A stretch of 64,000 nt of DNA, taken from contig JAFIEI010000008.1 of NCBI GenBank assembly GCA_020832565.1, positions 1 to 64,000 on the forward strand, written 5' to 3'. Positions 21,690 through 30,083 of the stretch are shown here, one piece after another. The translations under genes were made by a program, and so were the position numbers. The notes beneath the pieces were generated by a model. The model saw only the letters and a list, made by a program, of their open reading frames with translations, did no database searches and was not told the origin of the DNA. The stretch is from Salinarimonas sp. GTDB taxonomy: Bacteria > Pseudomonadota > Alphaproteobacteria > Rhizobiales > Beijerinckiaceae. How positions within the stretch are numbered: position 1 is the first letter of the stretch; each line of letters starts with the position of its first letter.

Positions 21690-21885
21690 GGCGTTTTCTT
21701 CTCGGAATGGTTTTGCCGATCCCGGTCGAATCCCGGCTCATCGTGCCCGTGCGGGGCGTGTGGGTACCGACTATCGTTGCGTCAGAGGGGCCGATCAATG
21801 GGGCGTTTCGCGCATGTGCGTGTTGAGCGATCCCGGAAGTGCGACGGGGCGGATCGCCAGCGGCTGCTTCCGAGGGCTATGCTTT

Positions 21886-21925
21886 GCGGGATCTATCCGA
21901 GAGCGGCGGGATCTATCCGAGAACG
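21886..21925. repeat. 20-bp tandem duplication upstream of PLP enzyme gene
   Basis: Two head-to-tail 20-bp units, GCGGGATCTATCCGAGAGCG and the same with one change (A for G at position 18). Each contains the short inverted repeat GGAT-CT-ATCC. The array ends 26 bp before the ATG of the next gene, so it may act as operator or leader structure. Confidence 0.7.
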
Positions 21926-21951
21926 AAACGCGGCAGGGGAGCGCTCAGGCC

Positions 21952-22998
21952 ATGCAAGACATCCTGCAAAATCCATGGCGCGGCGCGGGGCTCGCCCTCG
22001 ATGCGCCTGATCCCGCGAGCGATGCTCGCGCGGTCGCTGAATTGCTCGCCCTGTGCCCGGCCCATGCGGTCACCCCGTTGCGCGAAGTAACCGAACTGGC
22101 AGAGCGCGCCGGGGTCGCGCGGGTTTTCGTCAAGGACGAGCGCGCGCGGATGGGGCTCGGCAGTTTCAAGGCGCTGGGTGCGGCTTACGCGATCGCGCGC
22201 GAGGCGGCGCAGCAGGTCGTCGGGAATGATTGGGCGCGCGCGCTGCAAGGGCGGATCTATGTCACCGCGAGTGCCGGCAATCACGGTCTCTCCGTTGCCG
22301 CCGGGGCGCGGCTGTTCGGGGCGCAGGCGGTGATCTATCTGGCCGAAACGGTGCCCGAGGCCTTCGCCGCCCGGCTTGAGGCGAAGGGAGCGCAGGTGGT
22401 GCGCGTGGGCGCGACATACGAGGAGAGCATGGCGGCTGCCGAAGAGGCGGCGCGCGCGCCGGGCCGCACGCTTCTGTCGGACAGTTCCTGGCCGGGCTAT
22501 AGCGAATTGCCGCTGCGGGTCATGGAGGGCTATCTGCAACTCGCCGCCGAGGCTGCCGGGCAGATCGACGCGCCGCCGACGCATATCCTGCTGCAGGCTG
22601 GTGTCGGCGGGCTGGCAGCCGCCGTGGCCGCCCATGCCCGGGCCGTCTGGGGGGATGCGCCGCAGATCGTCGTGGTCGAGCCCGCCGCTGCGCCTGCGCT
22701 GATCGAAAGTATCCGCGCCGGGCGCCTCGTCACGACGCAGGGGCCGGTCTCCGCAATGGGGCGCCTTGATTGTAAGACACCCTCGTTGATCGCGCTCGAG
22801 GGGCTTTCGCGCGATGCCGATCGGTTCGTCACCATCAGCGAAGAGGAAGCCGCGCCGGCCGTGGCATTGCTCACGGAGGCAGGCCTCGCCACGACGCCGT
22901 CGGGTGGAGCCGGCATCGCCGCGCTTCTGGCGGGGCTCGCTTGCGGGCCGGATGCGCGGGTGATGGCGATCATCAGCGAGGGGCCGGAGGCGGCGTAG
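21952..22998 (+). CDS. PLP-dependent ammonia-lyase, diaminopropionate ammonia-lyase-like
   Basis: A 348-residue fold-type II PLP enzyme. The PLP lysine is in VKDERARMGLGSFKALGAAYA, closely like the matching stretch of diaminopropionate ammonia-lyase; the glycine-rich loops ASAGNHG and LLQAGVGGLAAAV follow, with TPSGGAGIAAL near the end. It is about 50 residues shorter than E. coli DpaL, so threonine/serine dehydratase-like alternatives are possible. The start at 21952 was chosen because upstream sequence reads as shadow of the opposite SDR gene; a GGGGAG lies 14 nt before it. It faces the convergent phnM across 6 bp. Confidence 0.75.
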   Translation: MQDILQNPWRGAGLALDAPDPASDARAVAELLALCPAHAVTPLREVTELAERAGVARVFVKDERARMGLGSFKALGAAYAIAREAAQQVVGNDWARALQGRIYVTASAGNHGLSVAAGARLFGAQAVIYLAETVPEAFAARLEAKGAQVVRVGATYEESMAAAEEAARAPGRTLLSDSSWPGYSELPLRVMEGYLQLAAEAAGQIDAPPTHILLQAGVGGLAAAVAAHARAVWGDAPQIVVVEPAAAPALIESIRAGRLVTTQGPVSAMGRLDCKTPSLIALEGLSRDADRFVTISEEEAAPAVALLTEAGLATTPSGGAGIAALLAGLACGPDARVMAIISEGPEAA

Positions 22999-23004
22999 AG
23001 CGCC

Positions 23005-24165
23005 TCACGCCACCCGCTTTCCCTTCACCCATGTCCCGCGTACGACGGGGGTGCCGTTCACCTCGCGAAAGCGGATCACGTCGGCGCGCAGGCCCGGTTC
23101 GAGCGCGCCGCGATCGGTCAGGCCCGTGGCGCGGGCGGCGTTGCGCGTCACCGTGGCGATGCCCGCGGGCAGGTCGTCGCTCTGGCGAGCCAGCGCCATG
23201 GCACCCATCAGCAGCGATGCAGGGATGTAATCGGAGGAGATGATGTCGAGCAGCCCGGCCTGTGCGGCCTCCGCAGCCGAGACGTTGCCGGAATGCGAGC
23301 CGCCCCGAATCAGGTTGGGTCCGCCCATCATGATTGCGATTGCGTGGTTGCGGCAGGCACGGGCGGCTTCCAGCGTGGTGGGGAATTCCGCGAGGCCCGC
23401 GCCATGGGCGGCAGATGCCGCGACATGGGCTTCGGTCGTATCGTCATGGCTGGCGAGGACGGCGCCGAGGCGCCGTGCACCCGCGACGGCTGCGGTTTCA
23501 TGGGCATCGCGGACACGATTCCCCAGCGCCTGACGATCCGCGATATAGGTCTCGAAATCCGTCGGCGCGATGCCGTGCTTGCCGACCATGTAGGTGCGCA
23601 GGCGATCGAGATCGGCGAATTGCCGCTGGCCGGGCGTGTGATCCATCATGCTGACGATGCCGACGCGGTCATCGGGGGTAAATTCCGCGAGTTCGGCGAC
23701 GAGCGTGTCCGAGCAGATCTCTGCGCGCAGATGCAGGTAGTGGCTGATGCGCAGCGCGTCGTTCGCGGCCATGTCGAGGATCTCGTTGGCCATGCCGCGT
23801 GCATAGGGTTTGTAGCCGGCACGCACCCGCGGCGCCTTGTGCTCGGAGCCGATGCGAAGCGCGTCGAAGACGGTGGTGATGCCCACGCCGGCGAGTTCTG
23901 CATCATGGGCGATGATCGCGTTCATATGCGGCCAGTCGACACCCGGGCGCGGGGTCATGTGGCGCTCGAGATTGTCGGTATGCAGCTCGATCAGCCCGGG
24001 CGCGACGTGATCGCCCTCGCAATCGATCATGCCGGCGACCGCCGTGGTGCCGGGATCGATCGCCGCGATCTTTCCGTCGCGGATGACGAGGCTGCCGGTG
24101 ACGACCTCCTCGGGCAGGATCAGGCGGGCATTGCCGAGAACGGTTTCTTGCGTGGGTTTTTGCAC
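23005..24165 (-). CDS. phnM: Alpha-D-ribose 1-methylphosphonate 5-triphosphate diphosphatase PhnM (3' half of a phnN-phnM reading frame)
   Basis: Removes pyrophosphate from ribose 1-alkylphosphonate 5-triphosphate in the C-P lyase pathway. It has the amidohydrolase fold with the LHTDNLERHMTPRPGVDWP metal motif and later DHTPGQRQ and SHDDTTEAH segments; 386 residues from the GTG at 24165, matching PhnM length. That GTG has an AGGAG site 7 nt upstream, but there is no stop codon between it and phnN, so PhnM could be made alone by internal initiation, as a fusion with PhnN, or both. See the phnN entry. Confidence 0.9.
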   Translation of the reverse strand: MQKPTQETVLGNARLILPEEVVTGSLVIRDGKIAAIDPGTTAVAGMIDCEGDHVAPGLIELHTDNLERHMTPRPGVDWPHMNAIIAHDAELAGVGITTVFDALRIGSEHKAPRVRAGYKPYARGMANEILDMAANDALRISHYLHLRAEICSDTLVAELAEFTPDDRVGIVSMMDHTPGQRQFADLDRLRTYMVGKHGIAPTDFETYIADRQALGNRVRDAHETAAVAGARRLGAVLASHDDTTEAHVAASAAHGAGLAEFPTTLEAARACRNHAIAIMMGGPNLIRGGSHSGNVSAAEAAQAGLLDIISSDYIPASLLMGAMALARQSDDLPAGIATVTRNAARATGLTDRGALEPGLRADVIRFREVNGTPVVRGTWVKGKRVA

Positions 24166-24777
24166 GGGGGATCTCCTGGTCGCGCTCTTTTCGGCGCTGG
24201 TGCGGGTCGCGTTCGTGGTGATCGCGTCCAATACGGCGAGGAATTGCGCCACACCGGTATCGAGATCACCGTCATTTTCCACGATATGGGCGCCCGGAGG
24301 CGCCGTGAGCCGTCCGCGCGCGAGGCGCGCGGCGATCTCGACGGGTGTCTCGCGTCCACGGGCGGAGAGGCGCGCGGCGCGGGTGTCGTCGCGCGCGATG
24401 ATCATCACCACCGCGAGTTCCCGATCATGCGCCTGTGCCGCCGCCAGGGCCGCACGCGAGCCGTTGAAGATGACCGTCCGGCCCGCCTCGCGGGCGGCGA
24501 GAGCCGCATGCGGTATCGCATAGGACAGGCCATGCGCGTGCCAGTGGAAGGCGAATTCGCCACCCGTCAGCCGCCGCTCGAATTCGGCTGCGTCGACAGC
24601 CTCGTGATCCTCGCCGCCCGCATCGGCAGGACGCGTGATGACACGGCGGACCCGGGCCAGATCGGGGCGCGCTGCGAGAGCAGCACTGATCAGCGCATCC
24701 TTGCCGGCCCCGGAAGGTCCGACCACGGCGACGAGGCATCCATTGCCCGGATCACGATCATGCTTCGATGCAATCAT
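23005..24777 (-). CDS. phnN: PhnN-PhnM continuous frame: ribose 1,5-bisphosphokinase fused to PhnM
   Basis: The frame starts at ATG 24777 (MIASKHDRDPGNG) and runs 590 codons without a stop. Residues 1 to about 195 are PhnN, which phosphorylates ribose 1,5-bisphosphate to PRPP: Walker A GPSGAGKD, then RRVITRPADAGGEDHEAV, and FHWHAHGLSYAIP. A short Thr/Ala/Arg-rich stretch (about residues 190-208) leads straight into PhnM. PhnN is normally a separate protein of about 185-200 residues. The start overlaps the phnL stop as ATGA. A fused product would join the PRPP-forming step to the diphosphatase step that comes before ring opening; whether the fusion is made is unproven. Confidence 0.85.
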   Translation of the reverse strand: MIASKHDRDPGNGCLVAVVGPSGAGKDALISAALAARPDLARVRRVITRPADAGGEDHEAVDAAEFERRLTGGEFAFHWHAHGLSYAIPHAALAAREAGRTVIFNGSRAALAAAQAHDRELAVVMIIARDDTRAARLSARGRETPVEIAARLARGRLTAPPGAHIVENDGDLDTGVAQFLAVLDAITTNATRTSAEKSATRRSPVQKPTQETVLGNARLILPEEVVTGSLVIRDGKIAAIDPGTTAVAGMIDCEGDHVAPGLIELHTDNLERHMTPRPGVDWPHMNAIIAHDAELAGVGITTVFDALRIGSEHKAPRVRAGYKPYARGMANEILDMAANDALRISHYLHLRAEICSDTLVAELAEFTPDDRVGIVSMMDHTPGQRQFADLDRLRTYMVGKHGIAPTDFETYIADRQALGNRVRDAHETAAVAGARRLGAVLASHDDTTEAHVAASAAHGAGLAEFPTTLEAARACRNHAIAIMMGGPNLIRGGSHSGNVSAAEAAQAGLLDIISSDYIPASLLMGAMALARQSDDLPAGIATVTRNAARATGLTDRGALEPGLRADVIRFREVNGTPVVRGTWVKGKRVA

Positions 24778-25445
24778 GGCGTAAAGGCTCCCACATCGAT
24801 CTCCCGGTCGCAGACCCGCGCGCGGGCATCCGCATCGTGGAAGATCCCGAGGATCGCCGCGCCGCGGGCCTTCGCCTCGCTGATCAGTTCGAGCACGGTC
24901 TCGCGATTGGTCGGGTCGAGGCTGGCCGTCGGCTCGTCGAGCAGGAGCGCGGGCCAGGGATGCACGAAGCCGCGTGCGATATTGACGCGCTGCTGTTCGC
25001 CGCCGGAGAACGTGGCGGGAGCAAGCCTCCACAGGGTCTGCGGGATACGCAGGCGCGCAAGCAGCGCCCCGGCGCGTGCCTGCGCCGTCGCGGCATCCAC
25101 GCCCAGCATTCGCAAGGGCTCTGCCGCCACCTCGATGGTGGGTACGCGCGGCACGGCGCGCAGAAACTGGCTGACATGGCCGAGGGTGTTCCGGCGCAGC
25201 GCGAGGATGGCGCGGGGGCGATCGGAATCGAGCACTTCGTCGCCGATGCGGATCGCGCCCGATTCGATGCGGTAATTGCCGTAGATCATCCGCATCAGGG
25301 TAGATTTCCCGGCCCCCGAGGCGCCCGTCAACGCGACGCATTCGCCCGGCTCCACGCGCATGCTCACGCCGCGCATCACGCCGATACGGGTGCCGCCCTG
25401 ATTGTGCAGGGTGAAGGCTTTGGAGACGTTCTCGACGCTGATCAT
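24774..25445 (-). CDS. phnL: C-P lyase system ABC-type ATP-binding protein PhnL
   Basis: A 223-residue ABC ATPase of the C-P lyase pathway, required in E. coli for making ribose 1-methylphosphonate 5-triphosphate with PhnGHI. It has Walker A TGASGAGKST, the signature FSGGEQQRVNIARG and Walker B ALLLDEPTASLDP. Despite the ABC fold it has no transporter partner. It starts 10 bp after the phnK stop and ends by ATGA overlap with phnN. Confidence 0.95.
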   Translation of the reverse strand: MISVENVSKAFTLHNQGGTRIGVMRGVSMRVEPGECVALTGASGAGKSTLMRMIYGNYRIESGAIRIGDEVLDSDRPRAILALRRNTLGHVSQFLRAVPRVPTIEVAAEPLRMLGVDAATAQARAGALLARLRIPQTLWRLAPATFSGGEQQRVNIARGFVHPWPALLLDEPTASLDPTNRETVLELISEAKARGAAILGIFHDADARARVCDREIDVGAFTP

Positions 25446-25455
25446 GCACTGTCTC

Positions 25456-26229
25456 CTAAACCTGCAGAACCGAACTGACGAGCAATTGTGTGTAGGCGTG
25501 TTGCGGATCGTCGAGAACCTGGTCGGTCAATCCGCTCTCCACCACGTATCCGCCCTGCATCACCATCAGTCTGTCGGCGAGAAGCCGCACCACCGCGAGA
25601 TCATGCGTCACGATCACAGCGGAGAGGCCGAGATCGCGCACCAGCCCGCGCAGCAGATCGAGCAGCCGCGCCTGGACGCTGACATCGAGCCCGCCCGTCG
25701 GCTCGTCCATGAAGACGAGGCGGGGGCCGTTGACGAGGCTGCGCGCGATCTGCAGGCGCTGCTGCATACCGCCGGAAAAGTCGCGCGGGACGTCGTCGAT
25801 GCGGTCTTGCGCGATCTCGACCCGCTCCAGCCAGTCGAGGGCTGCTGCACGGATATCGCCGAAATGGCGCTGCCCGCGCGCCATCAGCGGTTCGCCCACA
25901 TTGCCGCCGGCGCTGACGCCCATGCGCAGGCCGTCGCGCGGATTCTGATGCACATAGGCCCATTCCTCGCGCGCGAGCCGTCTGCGTCCGGCCTCCGAGA
26001 GGTTTGCCACCGCATGGGCATGGCCGCTGCGATCCCGGTAGAGGATCTGCCCGCCATCGCTCGCGAGATGCCCGGCGAGGCAGGAGAGCAGCGTCGATTT
26101 ACCCGAACCGCTTTCGCCGACGATCCCCATCACCTCCCCCGGCCAAAGCGTGAAGGAGACCTCGGCGCAGCCGATGCGCCGGCCATAATGCTTGCGCAGA
26201 CCATCGACTTCGAGAAGCGGCGCGCTCAT
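25456..26229 (-). CDS. phnK: C-P lyase system ABC-type ATP-binding protein PhnK
   Basis: A 257-residue ABC ATPase that docks on the PhnGHIJ core complex in E. coli. Walker A GESGSGKST, signature FSGGMQQRLQIARSL and Walker B LVFMDEPTGGLD are present, and the C-terminus (DDPQHAYTQLLVSSVLQV) is typical. The ATG at 26229 overlaps the phnJ stop as ATGA, so translation is coupled. An open frame upstream of this ATG is the out-of-frame shadow of phnJ. Confidence 0.95.
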   Translation of the reverse strand: MSAPLLEVDGLRKHYGRRIGCAEVSFTLWPGEVMGIVGESGSGKSTLLSCLAGHLASDGGQILYRDRSGHAHAVANLSEAGRRRLAREEWAYVHQNPRDGLRMGVSAGGNVGEPLMARGQRHFGDIRAAALDWLERVEIAQDRIDDVPRDFSGGMQQRLQIARSLVNGPRLVFMDEPTGGLDVSVQARLLDLLRGLVRDLGLSAVIVTHDLAVVRLLADRLMVMQGGYVVESGLTDQVLDDPQHAYTQLLVSSVLQV

Positions 26230-27098
26230 TCGGGCATCTCCTCGAAAGGTGCCGCCATCTCCCCGCGATGGCCGGCGGCGCGACGGTCGTTGCAATAATC
26301 GGTATCGGAGCAGACGAACATGCGCCCGCCCGCATCGTCGATGACCACCTCGTCGAGATAGCTGTCGCGCGCCCCGCACAGGGCGCAGGGGTGATCCGGC
26401 CGGGACGCCTTGAAGGGATAGTCCTCGAAATCGAGGCTCTCCACCCGCGTATAGGGCGGCAGGGCATAGATGCGCTGTTCGCGCCCGGCCCCGAAGAGCT
26501 GCAGGGCGGGACAGTCGTCGAGCTTGGGATTGTCGAATTTCGGGATCGGCGAGGGATCCATCACGTAGCGCCCCTCCACCCTGACCGGATAGGCGTAGGA
26601 TTTGGCGATCTCGCCATGGCGGGCGATATCCTCGTAGAGGCGCACATGCATCAGGCCGTATTCCTCCAGCGCATGCATCTTGCGGGTCTCGGTCTCGCGC
26701 GGCTCCAGAAAACGCAGGGGCTCGGGAATCGGGACCTGGAAGACCAGGATCTGGTCCTCGCGCAGGGGCGCTTCCGGGATGCGGTGGCGGGTCTGGATGA
26801 CGCTGGCATCGCGGGTGTGTTCCGTGGTGGCGATATCGGCGACGCGGGCGAAGAAGGCGCGGATCGACACGGCATTCGTCGTATCATCCGCGCCCTGATC
26901 GATCACCTTGAGCGTGTCTTCGGGGACGAGGCAGGCGGCTGTCACCTGCACGCCGCCGGTGCCCCAGCCATAGGGCATCGGCATCTCGCGCGAGGCGAAC
27001 GGCACCTGGTAGCCGGGGATCGCCACCGCCTTGAGCAGGGCGCGGCGGATCATGCGCTTGGTCTGTTCGTCGAGATAGGCGAAGTTATAGCCGCTCAT
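26226..27098 (-). CDS. phnJ: Alpha-D-ribose 1-methylphosphonate 5-phosphate C-P lyase PhnJ
   Basis: Radical SAM enzyme that breaks the carbon-phosphorus bond. The 290-residue product matches E. coli PhnJ closely (SGYNFAYLDEQTKRMIRRA at the start). The unusual Fe-S cluster motif CX2CX21CX5C is intact at residues 238, 241, 263 and 269; the glycine that forms the glycyl radical (Gly32 in E. coli) corresponds to G29 in AIPGY. All residues expected for activity are therefore present. The start overlaps the phnI stop as ATGA and the end overlaps the phnK start. Confidence 0.97.
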   Translation of the reverse strand: MSGYNFAYLDEQTKRMIRRALLKAVAIPGYQVPFASREMPMPYGWGTGGVQVTAACLVPEDTLKVIDQGADDTTNAVSIRAFFARVADIATTEHTRDASVIQTRHRIPEAPLREDQILVFQVPIPEPLRFLEPRETETRKMHALEEYGLMHVRLYEDIARHGEIAKSYAYPVRVEGRYVMDPSPIPKFDNPKLDDCPALQLFGAGREQRIYALPPYTRVESLDFEDYPFKASRPDHPCALCGARDSYLDEVVIDDAGGRMFVCSDTDYCNDRRAAGHRGEMAAPFEEMPE

Positions 27099-28186
27099 GC
27101 GTCCGCTCCCAGATGTGCGAGCGCCTCGGAGCGCAGCTTGCGGATCAGTTCGAGCTCGGCCTGGAAATCCACGTAATGCGGCAGCTTGATATGCTCGAGA
27201 AAGCCGCTCGCCTGGATGTTGTCGGCATGGGCGAGGACGAATTCCTCGTCCTGGGCCGGCGCGCCGGTATTCTCCTCGCCCAGCTCCTTCCAGCGCAGAG
27301 CACGATCGACGAGCGCCATGGAGATCGCCTTGCGCTCGCCGCGCCCGAAGACGAGCCCGTAGCCGCGCGTGAACTGGGCGGGCTGCGTCTTCGAGCCGGT
27401 GAACTGGTTCACGCTCTCGCATTCGCTGACGACAATCTCGCCGATCTCGACGGCAAAGCCGAGTTCCGGAATCTCCATCTCGACCGCGACCGTGCCGACG
27501 CGCAATTCGCCCACGAAGGGGTGGTTGCGCCCGTAGCCGCGCTGGGTCGAATAAGCCAGCGACAATAGGAAACCCTCATCGCCGCGGGCCAGCGCCTGCA
27601 GGCGCAGGGCGCGGCTCGCGGGAAGCGATAGCGGTGCGCGCGTGAGGTCCGGCGGGGTATCGACTTCGTCGTGTTCGGATTCGGCCTGGATGAGATCCTC
27701 GCGGGCGAGAATCTCGGTGACATGCGGCTTCGCGGCGTCGCGGGGCTCGCTCTGCGGCGCGGATGAGGGCGCCTCGCCCCCGGCCATCAGCGCGAAGTCC
27801 AGCAGCCGATGCGTATAGTCGAAGGTGGGGCCGAGCACCTGCCCGCCCGGTGCATCCTTGAAGATTGCGCTGATGCGCCGCTCGCAGGCCATCGCCCCGG
27901 TCGCAATCGGAATCGAGGCGCCGAAGCGGGGCAGGGTCGTGCGATAGGCCCGGATCAGGAAGATCGCCTCGATCGCGTCACCGCGCGCCTGCTTCAGGGC
28001 CAGCGCGGCGAGGTCGGGATCGTAGAGCGAGCCCTCCGCCATGACGCGATCGACGGCGAGCGTCATCTGCGTGCGGATCTGGTCGGTGCCGAGTTCCGGT
28101 ATCGCCGGATCGCCGCGCCGCTCCTCGTCGAGCCAGCCATGCGCCGCCGCGATGGCCCGCTCGCCGCCCTTGACCGCCACATACAT
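27095..28186 (-). CDS. phnI: C-P lyase core complex subunit PhnI
   Basis: A 363-residue subunit of the PhnGHIJ core, thought to carry the nucleosidase step that swaps adenine for methylphosphonate on ATP ribose. It has the conserved start YVAVKGGERAIAAAH, the LPRFGASIP segment and the C-terminal ALVDRALRW region. The start ATG shares one base with the phnH stop (TGATG), and its end overlaps phnJ, so the genes are tightly coupled. Confidence 0.95.
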   Translation of the reverse strand: MYVAVKGGERAIAAAHGWLDEERRGDPAIPELGTDQIRTQMTLAVDRVMAEGSLYDPDLAALALKQARGDAIEAIFLIRAYRTTLPRFGASIPIATGAMACERRISAIFKDAPGGQVLGPTFDYTHRLLDFALMAGGEAPSSAPQSEPRDAAKPHVTEILAREDLIQAESEHDEVDTPPDLTRAPLSLPASRALRLQALARGDEGFLLSLAYSTQRGYGRNHPFVGELRVGTVAVEMEIPELGFAVEIGEIVVSECESVNQFTGSKTQPAQFTRGYGLVFGRGERKAISMALVDRALRWKELGEENTGAPAQDEEFVLAHADNIQASGFLEHIKLPHYVDFQAELELIRKLRSEALAHLGADA

Positions 28187-28755
28187 CAGCGCGCCCCCAC
28201 AATCGTCGTGCGCGGCAGAGCCGCAATCGCATCACCGCTGGTGAAGATGAAATCGAGCCCGCGCGGAAACAGACGCCTGTTCTCCCGGAACGGTGCGATC
28301 TCGGGGAGGGAGAGGTAGGCCTCGTCACGAATTCCGGGGCCGGTGAGCCGCGCGCCGGTGGCGGCAAGCGCCGGCATTTCGACGATCAGCGTGGCGGCGT
28401 GGTCCGGATATTCGTCGCTGCCGAAGGGATAATCGATGATCGGGACAAGCGCTTCCCAGGGGCCGATCGCGAAGGCGGCCCGGCCGCGTGCCGCGACCGG
28501 CGCACCCGTGTGGAAGCGCAGGTAGTCGCGGATGATTGCGGTGTCGCAGGGCCCGGCGAGATGGACCGGCGTGGTGTCGTCGGCCAGCGTCAGCAACACG
28601 GCGGCTGCGGCCGGGGAAAGGCCGGGCGGCGGCCCGACTCCGGAAATCCGGGCAATCCGGCCCGGTCGTGCCATGGCCTGCAGCACCTCGCGAAACACGC
28701 GGGCCGAATCGATGGCGGGATTGGCAAAGCCGCCTGAGAGCGCTGCGGCATCCAT
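28186..28755 (-). CDS. phnH: C-P lyase core complex subunit PhnH
   Basis: A 189-residue structural subunit of the C-P lyase core. It shows the family start GGFANPAIDSARVFREVLQAMARPG and the end RGLDFIFTSGDAIAALPRTT. A GTG at 28761 overlaps the phnG stop (GTGA), but the GGGGGGAG ribosome site lies directly against it, whereas it is spaced correctly for the ATG at 28755; the latter is preferred. Confidence 0.94.
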   Translation of the reverse strand: MDAAALSGGFANPAIDSARVFREVLQAMARPGRIARISGVGPPPGLSPAAAAVLLTLADDTTPVHLAGPCDTAIIRDYLRFHTGAPVAARGRAAFAIGPWEALVPIIDYPFGSDEYPDHAATLIVEMPALAATGARLTGPGIRDEAYLSLPEIAPFRENRRLFPRGLDFIFTSGDAIAALPRTTIVGAR

Positions 28756-28757
28756 GT

Positions 28758-29225
28758 TCACTCCCCCCGGACCATGGTGAAGAAATCGACCTGCGTGGCC
28801 GCGGCTCGCGATGCGCGCGCCGTGCGCGCTTCGGTTTCAATCGTAGCAAGCGGCGCCAATATCGCCTTGCGGGCATGGTCGGCGTGCGGGCCGGCCATCA
28901 GGGCATCGACGAGCGCGGCGATGCGCGCCTTCTCCCGGTCGCGGCCCTGCACATAGGCATGGCCGACCGCGCCGCAGGGCAGGCGCAGGGAGGCGCGGGT
29001 CACGGTCATCTCGCCGAGATTGAAAGCCTCGCCCACCGCCCCGGCGCGACCGCGCACCATGACGGTGCCGGTTTCGGGCTTGCGCAGCCAGGTGATGGCC
29101 GCTTCCTCCAGCCCCGCGCGGTTGCACGTAAAATCCCGCCAGAGCGCGGCGAGGGTCTCGGGCCGGCTACGCGCCAGCAGGCCCATCCAGTTCCGGCGCT
29201 GATTCGGATCGCCCTGATTGCTCAT
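28758..29225 (-). CDS. phnG: C-P lyase core complex subunit PhnG
   Basis: A 155-residue small subunit of the C-P lyase core and first gene of the operon. Typical features are RNWMGLLARSRPETL, the VMVRGRAGAVGEAFNLGEMTVTRA block cited here only in part, and GHAYVQGRDREKA near the middle. It diverges from phnF across 135 bp that hold four tandem 8-bp repeats. The ribosome site is weak. Confidence 0.94.
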   Translation of the reverse strand: MSNQGDPNQRRNWMGLLARSRPETLAALWRDFTCNRAGLEEAAITWLRKPETGTVMVRGRAGAVGEAFNLGEMTVTRASLRLPCGAVGHAYVQGRDREKARIAALVDALMAGPHADHARKAILAPLATIETEARTARASRAAATQVDFFTMVRGE

Positions 29226-29360: not shown

Positions 29361-30083
29361 ATGGATGAGACGGAGAATCGGAGCGCCCTGTGGGCCACCA
29401 TTCGCGATGCGCTCGAGGCGGATCTCGCGGGCGGGCTCTATGCGCCCGGCGACAAGCTTCCCAGCGAGGCGCAGCTCGCCGCACGCTTCTGCGTGAACCG
29501 GCACACGGTGCGCCGGGCGCTCGCGGCTCTGGCGGAGGCCGGGATCGTCCATGCGCGCCGGGGTGCAGGCGTCTTCGTCACGGCACGTCCGACGACCTAC
29601 CGGATCGGGCGCCGGACCCGTTTCCACCAGAACCTGCATGAGGCGGGCCTGCATCCGGAGAAGCGGCATGTCAGGCTGGAGACGCGGGCGGCGGATGCGC
29701 GCGAGGCCGGGGCGCTGGAGCTGACACCCGGTGCAGCGGTTCATGTCTGGGAGGGGGTGAGCGTCGCGGACGGAACGCCGATCGCGCTGTTTCGCTCGGT
29801 CTTCTGCGCGACCCGCTTTCCTGCCCTGAAGGAGGCGCTGGAGGAGACGCATTCCGTGACTGCCGCGCTCGCGCGATGCGGCCTCGACGATTATACCCGC
29901 CGCGAGACCCGGTTCTCGGTCACCGTTGCCGACGCCATCAAGGCGCGGCATCTGCTGCTGCCGCCTGGTGCGCCGCTCCTGCGCACGGTCGCAGTGAATG
30001 TCGATGCGCAGGCCCGGCCCGTGGAATACGGGCGGACATGGTTCGCCGGCGAGCGCGTCGAGCTCGTGGTCGCGGATGAGTGA
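29361..30083 (+). CDS. phnF: Phosphonate metabolism transcriptional regulator PhnF (GntR/HutC family)
   Basis: A 240-residue regulator with an N-terminal GntR winged helix (about residues 8-76: APGDKLPSEAQLAARFCVN, then RHTVRRALAALAEAGIV) and a C-terminal UTRA ligand domain of the HutC type (about residues 95-235). It is divergent from the phn operon, which is the usual place for phnF. It probably represses phnG onward and itself through the 8-bp repeat array. The inducer is not known. No strong ribosome site is seen before the ATG. Confidence 0.92.
   Translation: MDETENRSALWATIRDALEADLAGGLYAPGDKLPSEAQLAARFCVNRHTVRRALAALAEAGIVHARRGAGVFVTARPTTYRIGRRTRFHQNLHEAGLHPEKRHVRLETRAADAREAGALELTPGAAVHVWEGVSVADGTPIALFRSVFCATRFPALKEALEETHSVTAALARCGLDDYTRRETRFSVTVADAIKARHLLLPPGAPLLRTVAVNVDAQARPVEYGRTWFAGERVELVVADE

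Follow-up and report, generated by a model that had tools for sequence, protein, structure and literature searches.

In-frame fusion of phnN and phnM, with a retained start motif for PhnM, in a C-P lyase operon of Salinarimonas

The kinase PhnN and the diphosphatase PhnM share one uninterrupted reading frame in the DNA of Salinarimonas sp. analyzed here (positions 1 to 64,000 of contig JAFIEI010000008.1; this whole stretch of 64,000 nucleotides is hereafter called the window). Judged from the sequence, complete PhnN and complete PhnM are truly fused in frame in this gene, and the fusion is conserved; both enzymes are known, and the fusion is what is new. As the best explanation, we consider it fairly probable that this is a true translational fusion giving a bifunctional chain and free PhnM, in an operon gained by transfer, and that it originated through the loss or relocation of a DUF1045 gene.

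The fused gene and its operon

The fused frame (23005..24777, reverse strand) comprises 590 codons and a TGA, and it is kept in two other genomes of the genus, G001 and G002. Its translation from ATG 24777 to TGA 23005 gave 590 residues and a terminal stop with no internal stop, as the preliminary description of this DNA had reported. The listed open reading frame is longer (23005-25449), the frame being open further upstream of ATG 24777 because it runs through the same-strand phnL in another phase. That a full PhnN and a full PhnM are covered, which the same description had claimed, was confirmed with curated NCBIfam profiles, both families scoring above their cut-offs.

The Walker A consensus is GxxGxGK. 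The PhnN (ribose 1,5-bisphosphokinase) domain occupies residues 13-184 (24226..24741, reverse strand), as delimited by alignment with Escherichia coli PhnN and by TIGR02322, which scored 172.1 bits against a cut-off of 156 over profile positions 1-177 of 179. Its P-loop, GPSGAGKD, aligns with GPSGSGKD of E. coli PhnN, and on this profile and motif the half is assigned as a putative kinase converting ribose 1,5-bisphosphate to PRPP. The PhnM (RPnTP diphosphatase) domain spans residues 210-590 (23008..24150, reverse strand) and aligns with E. coli PhnM; it scored 529.1 bits with NF011984 (cut-off 260) and 439 bits with TIGR02318 (cut-off 390.55). The motifs HTD, MDH, ASHDD, and SDY of an amidohydrolase-like site are common to E. 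coli PhnM and invariant across the 36 rows of our alignment A3, and we take these His/Asp motifs to be metal-binding. From the profiles and motifs, this half is assigned as a predicted RPnTP diphosphatase, removing pyrophosphate from RPnTP. Between the two domains lies a linker of variable length (residues 185-209; 24151..24225, reverse strand).

Pfam found nothing at E 1e-3 on the whole fused chain; on the separate halves, Amidohydro_3 was above its cut-off and Guanylate_kin was weak and below it. In a sequence search of the PDB, only the PhnN part had matches, which were guanylate kinases. Elsewhere in the window's genome, neither a PhnN nor a PhnM copy was found, the sole other match having 33% identity over a part of PhnM (E 6.8e-4).

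The AF2 model, computed from A3 (3 fused and 33 PhnM rows, so that the PhnN half is backed by 3 rows only), predicts two ordered domains with a mean pLDDT of 85.9 and a pTM of 0.66. Alignments A1 and A2, which included PhnN-only rows, were dropped because those rows fell on the PhnM part. Residues 198-207, a stretch that includes residue 205, the candidate internal start discussed below, have a pLDDT below 50. A helix is drawn over residues 172-199, and the end of PhnN may extend into the linker in this model. Foldseek on the model listed amidohydrolases among its best 50 matches, with modest TM-scores.

The fused gene is the last of a C-P lyase operon of order phnG-H-I-J-K-L-(NM) on the reverse strand. 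Directly upstream, the stop of phnL (24774..25445; TIGR02324, 303.2 bits) overlaps the ATG of the fused gene (ATGA). It is preceded by phnK (25456..26229; TIGR02323, 373.9 bits), whose ATG 26229 is inferred from an ATGA overlap with the phnJ stop (26228-26226), and by phnJ itself (26226..27098; PF06007, 486.2 bits at 26277-27092). Further upstream are phnI (27095..28186), assigned from position and syntenic relatives only, with no NCBIfam match at 1e-20, phnH (28186..28761; TIGR03292, 146.2 bits), and phnG (28758..29225; TIGR03293, 159 bits). A phnF regulator gene is divergent (29361..30083, forward strand; TIGR02325, 224.3 bits).

On the other side, a diaminopropionate ammonia-lyase-like gene (21835-22998; 259.8 bits against a cut-off of 276) stands tail to tail with the fused gene, 6 nt apart. 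Antisense to the fused gene and phnL is a 660-codon open frame (23293-25275, forward strand), with a 668-codon counterpart in G001, which is probably a by-product of codon bias.

Conservation of the join and a candidate internal start for PhnM

Three of the four genomes of the genus carry the fusion, with 84% identity to the window's protein in G001 and 82% in G002, where the fused protein ends with the contig at residue 550. The G002 stretch is the public record PXAW01000191.1, from a Hyphomicrobiales metagenome assembly, with the same junction. The fourth genome, G003, gave no match at 1e-30 with the fused protein and no PhnJ match. The linker of G001 is 2 residues shorter than that of the window and the linker of G002 is 6 residues longer, both whole-codon differences, and no stop was found in any of the three linkers. 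Conservation of the join in related genomes, which the preliminary description had proposed to check, is observed in G001 and G002, and the stop or frameshift in close relatives that it had named as contrary evidence was looked for and found in neither. A sequencing or assembly error hiding a stop or frameshift could be suspected, the window's genome being a draft in 110 contigs, but the open join is common to three assemblies of different species, two of them at 82-84% identity to the window. Such an error has a negligible probability and is excluded in practice by these relatives.

Across the three genus pairs, both domains had a dN/dS of 0.12-0.16, against 0.55-0.95 for the linker, which is weakly constrained: its letters are nearly free while the frame is kept. 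An open linker alone is unremarkable because the DNA is GC-rich and neutral linkers usually stay open. Indeed, in simulations with 0.3-1 substitutions per site and lineage, 65-91% of neutral linkers kept an open frame, and after this simulation we rejected frame openness as proof of selection. By our own reckoning, the chance that at least two linker indels are in frame is about 1/9. What is beyond chance is that both full families share a frame, and do so in three species and also in the two additional genomes described below.

Between the window and G001, silent divergence within this same gene reached 1.15 over the PhnN part, more than in any other phn gene compared and about twice that of the PhnM part (0.47-0.50). 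The lower PhnM value would fit more translation of PhnM, though other causes are possible.

A second start may lie inside the frame. A Shine-Dalgarno-like AGGAG (24173..24177, reverse strand) is followed, after 7 nt, by a GTG (24163..24165, reverse strand) at the expected start of PhnM, and direct reading (AGGAG 24177-24173, GTG 24165-24163) agreed with what had first been noted at this site. The arrangement GGAG-7 nt-GTG is kept in all three fused genomes of the genus. At the same place, the two further fusions carry CAGGAG and ATG (G1301) or GAGG and ATG (G1194), so that a Shine-Dalgarno-like core stands 4-10 nt upstream of the PhnM ATG or GTG in all five fused genes. Such cores precede 3-9% of other ATG, GTG, or TTG codons in any frame and 4-17% of those in frame. 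Multiplied over three separate lineages, these frequencies give about 2e-4 (0.03 x 0.09 x 0.07), a value to be read with the cores, four 4-base motifs, having been chosen after the sites had been seen. At the internal site, the anti-Shine-Dalgarno duplexes have energies of -7.4, -6.6, and -5.6, none of which passes the 5th percentile (-7.6) for the full set of 20-nt stretches in the window's gene. The motif was probably inherited from a once separate gene, and it shows retention, not gain.

This retained start motif supports, and does not prove, a plausible internal initiation at GTG 24165. The free PhnM that the preliminary description had proposed is thus strengthened as far as its start is concerned, by a core and start codon in five of five fused genes, while the product itself stays at the level of a plausible prediction. 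The same retention, together with the weakly constrained linker, also favors another account, which we hold to be unlikely: the phnN stop would have been lost incidentally, most PhnM would come from its own internal start, the PhnN part and its read-through tail being tolerated, and the fused chain would be minor or cleaved, with no function of its own. Against it, three species of the genus have preserved the frame despite in-frame indels.

Distribution and origin of the fusions

The wide searches used the window's protein as query and scored up to three candidates per genome, a design in which phnM-phnN fusions would not show. In the genus's own family, 171 of 397 genomes matched at 1e-20, and among the matches listed only the three genomes of this genus join both parts. 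No other fusion was found in the order (86 of 397 genomes matching at 1e-100) or in the class (13 of 385 at 1e-105). The family f74, with 173 of 394 genomes matching at 1e-138, yielded two more among the matches listed, G1301 and G1194; its assignment to Rhodobacterales comes from one member, G1245, whose match coincides in coordinates with that of a plasmid of Qingshengfaniella alkalisoli. Both genomes encode an in-frame PhnN-PhnM with both families above cut-off and with phnG-L relatives upstream, and they answer to the further fusions for which a database search had been suggested with the first description. The fusion was not seen in the six other genomes of G1301's genus, and the one genus mate of G1194 gave no match at 1e-100.

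A survey of contigs kept 80 loci of 118 relatives. In 29 of them, the PhnM strand showed no PhnN, and one of the other 51 is fused, being the same contig as G002. Among plasmids, 237 records matched, and the sole one-piece match among the best 40 was that of Q. alkalisoli. A check of 33 loci for reverse-order phnM-phnN fusions revealed none. Several candidates were ruled out: five Devosia loci as phnM-phnN fusions (a stop follows phnM), G061, whose match reaches residue 153 (PhnN follows PhnM in another frame), and G1275 (PhnN lies upstream in another frame). The G061 and G1275 matches both extend into the PhnN part with no stop. Searches of an open-access library, which contains few subscription papers, turned up no report of a PhnN-PhnM fusion. 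Databases list PhnN fused to other enzymes.

Outside this genus, the fusion is sporadic within what was searched. In five genomes (G1243, G1268, G1505, G1245, and G1478), phnN and phnM are in frame and separated by just one stop, so that the fusion is one mutation away. Both observations add to the case for an incidental loss of the stop.

The fusion occurs in at least three lineages and seems to have had more than one origin. In an 86-row PhnM tree, the fused label must change at least three times to agree with the well supported branches. This tree left out duplicates (L032, L161, L163-L165, L171, and L175-L180), L160, L162, and L166, matches below 150 bits, rows shorter than 300 aa, and, six named loci excepted, rows below 51% identity to the window's PhnM; a first tree had left out L032 (same contig as L004), matches below 150 bits, and rows shorter than 300 aa. 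The genus clade (100/100) groups with G1453 and G1498 of f74 (98/95) inside a Rhodobacterales-type clade, and the G1301 and G1194 fusions occupy separate places. The sampled loci of the genus's own family and most of the order fall in another clade, many with the order phnM-phnN. The operon was probably gained by transfer and is of Rhodobacterales type; the tree, rooted at its midpoint, suggests the direction of transfer. Within the same order, family f22 (L112-L114 and L130) also carries a Rhodobacterales-type PhnM, which suggests a further transfer.

The nearest unfused relatives point to how the two genes may have met. The order in G1498 is N-M, in another frame, and that in G1453 is N-x-M, the intervening gene being an antisense DUF1045. 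Of 12 loci tested, 7, including that of G1453, contain DUF1045, always on the opposite strand and placed between phnN and phnM (for example L182 7436-8032, L041 10519-11190, and L189 2690-3202), and phnM in these unfused relatives does not, therefore, simply follow phnN. The other five loci, which include three fused operons and G1498, gave no DUF1045 match. In the genus of G1301, PhnN lies about 720 nt before PhnM in four of the six other genomes, G1545 has a partial PhnN further off in another frame, and G1546 has no PhnN in the stretch searched; DUF1045 was antisense in all three loci tested (L189, L192, and L193). Loss of DUF1045 from this place followed by in-frame joining is a likely route to the fusion.

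The window's genome keeps a DUF1045 gene outside the phn operon (L160, G000:C32, 9578-10363), with PF06299 above cut-off and TIGR03223 below it (219.6 bits, cut-off 248.95); its neighbor is presumably gamma-glutamyltransferase-like. No PhnP above cut-off was found in this genome. We take DUF1045 to be the rcsF/2H phosphodiesterase family, and by analogy the C32 protein may do the step of PhnP. An rcsF/2H phosphodiesterase has been proposed for that step in PMC10574752 and PMC3840354.

Pathway position and comparison with known systems

In a true translational fusion with two products, ribosomes would begin at ATG 24777, where the ATGA overlap probably couples translation to that of phnL, and the resulting chain would carry the PhnN kinase and the PhnM diphosphatase joined by a flexible linker of about 20 residues under weak constraint. 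A second start, at GTG 24165, would probably also be used and give free PhnM; with two starts, there would be more PhnM than PhnN in the cell. We infer that both products are made and that both domains are active. As to its origin, a Rhodobacterales-type operon was probably gained by transfer, as the tree and gene order suggest, the antisense DUF1045 gene would have been lost or relocated so that phnN and phnM became adjacent, and an in-frame loss of the phnN stop would have fused them.

According to PMC10574752 and PMC3840354, PhnM acts before PhnJ and PhnN after PhnP. Direct channelling is unlikely because these are not consecutive steps, and the idea of the preliminary description that the fusion joins two steps is not supported if consecutive chemistry is meant. 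This order also weighs against a selected fusion, in which PhnM and PhnN together would improve flux or assembly, for example with both at the C-P lyase complex. The three or more changes of the fused label and the conservation within the genus speak for such selection, but the linker varies in length and sequence and fusions are rare in what was searched, and we find it quite improbable. A further, more elaborate reading can be offered only tentatively, being possible and rather doubtful: a nested bifunctional gene, evolved at least three times from the order phnN-phnM, whose chain and free PhnM would set a fixed PhnN:PhnM ratio and tether the PRPP-forming kinase to the machinery of C-P lyase.

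The natural fusion offers a ready way of asking if PhnM and PhnN act side by side, and it is a neat case of a change in gene order leading to adjacency and then to fusion, with the start site of the second gene kept.

In E. coli, phnM (b4095) and phnN (b4094) encode the same enzyme families with the same key motifs as the fused gene. There they are two unfused genes in the order phnM-phnN, as the preliminary description had stated of their separateness, whereas the window has PhnN-PhnM in one chain. Some C-P lyase clusters lack PhnN or have a replacement for it (PMC10574752). The same paper describes another chain with two phosphonate enzymes, PhoF, a fungal PhnY-PhnZ fusion, although it belongs to an oxidative pathway and its enzymes differ from PhnN and PhnM.

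Further parallels come from f74, the family that holds the match of Q. alkalisoli. The plasmid of that species (NZ_CP042265.1) has the order phnG-H-I-J-K-L-N-M, as in the window, with phnN and phnM in the same frame; however, one TGA and a short gap separate them, they are annotated as two proteins, and, unlike in the window, phnI and phnJ have a HAD phosphatase gene between them. A threonine ammonia-lyase is annotated after its phnM. The genes of G1301 and G1194 are like that of the window, each a single frame with a Shine-Dalgarno-like core and an ATG at the PhnM start, but their linkers are shorter and each fusion occurs in one genome only.
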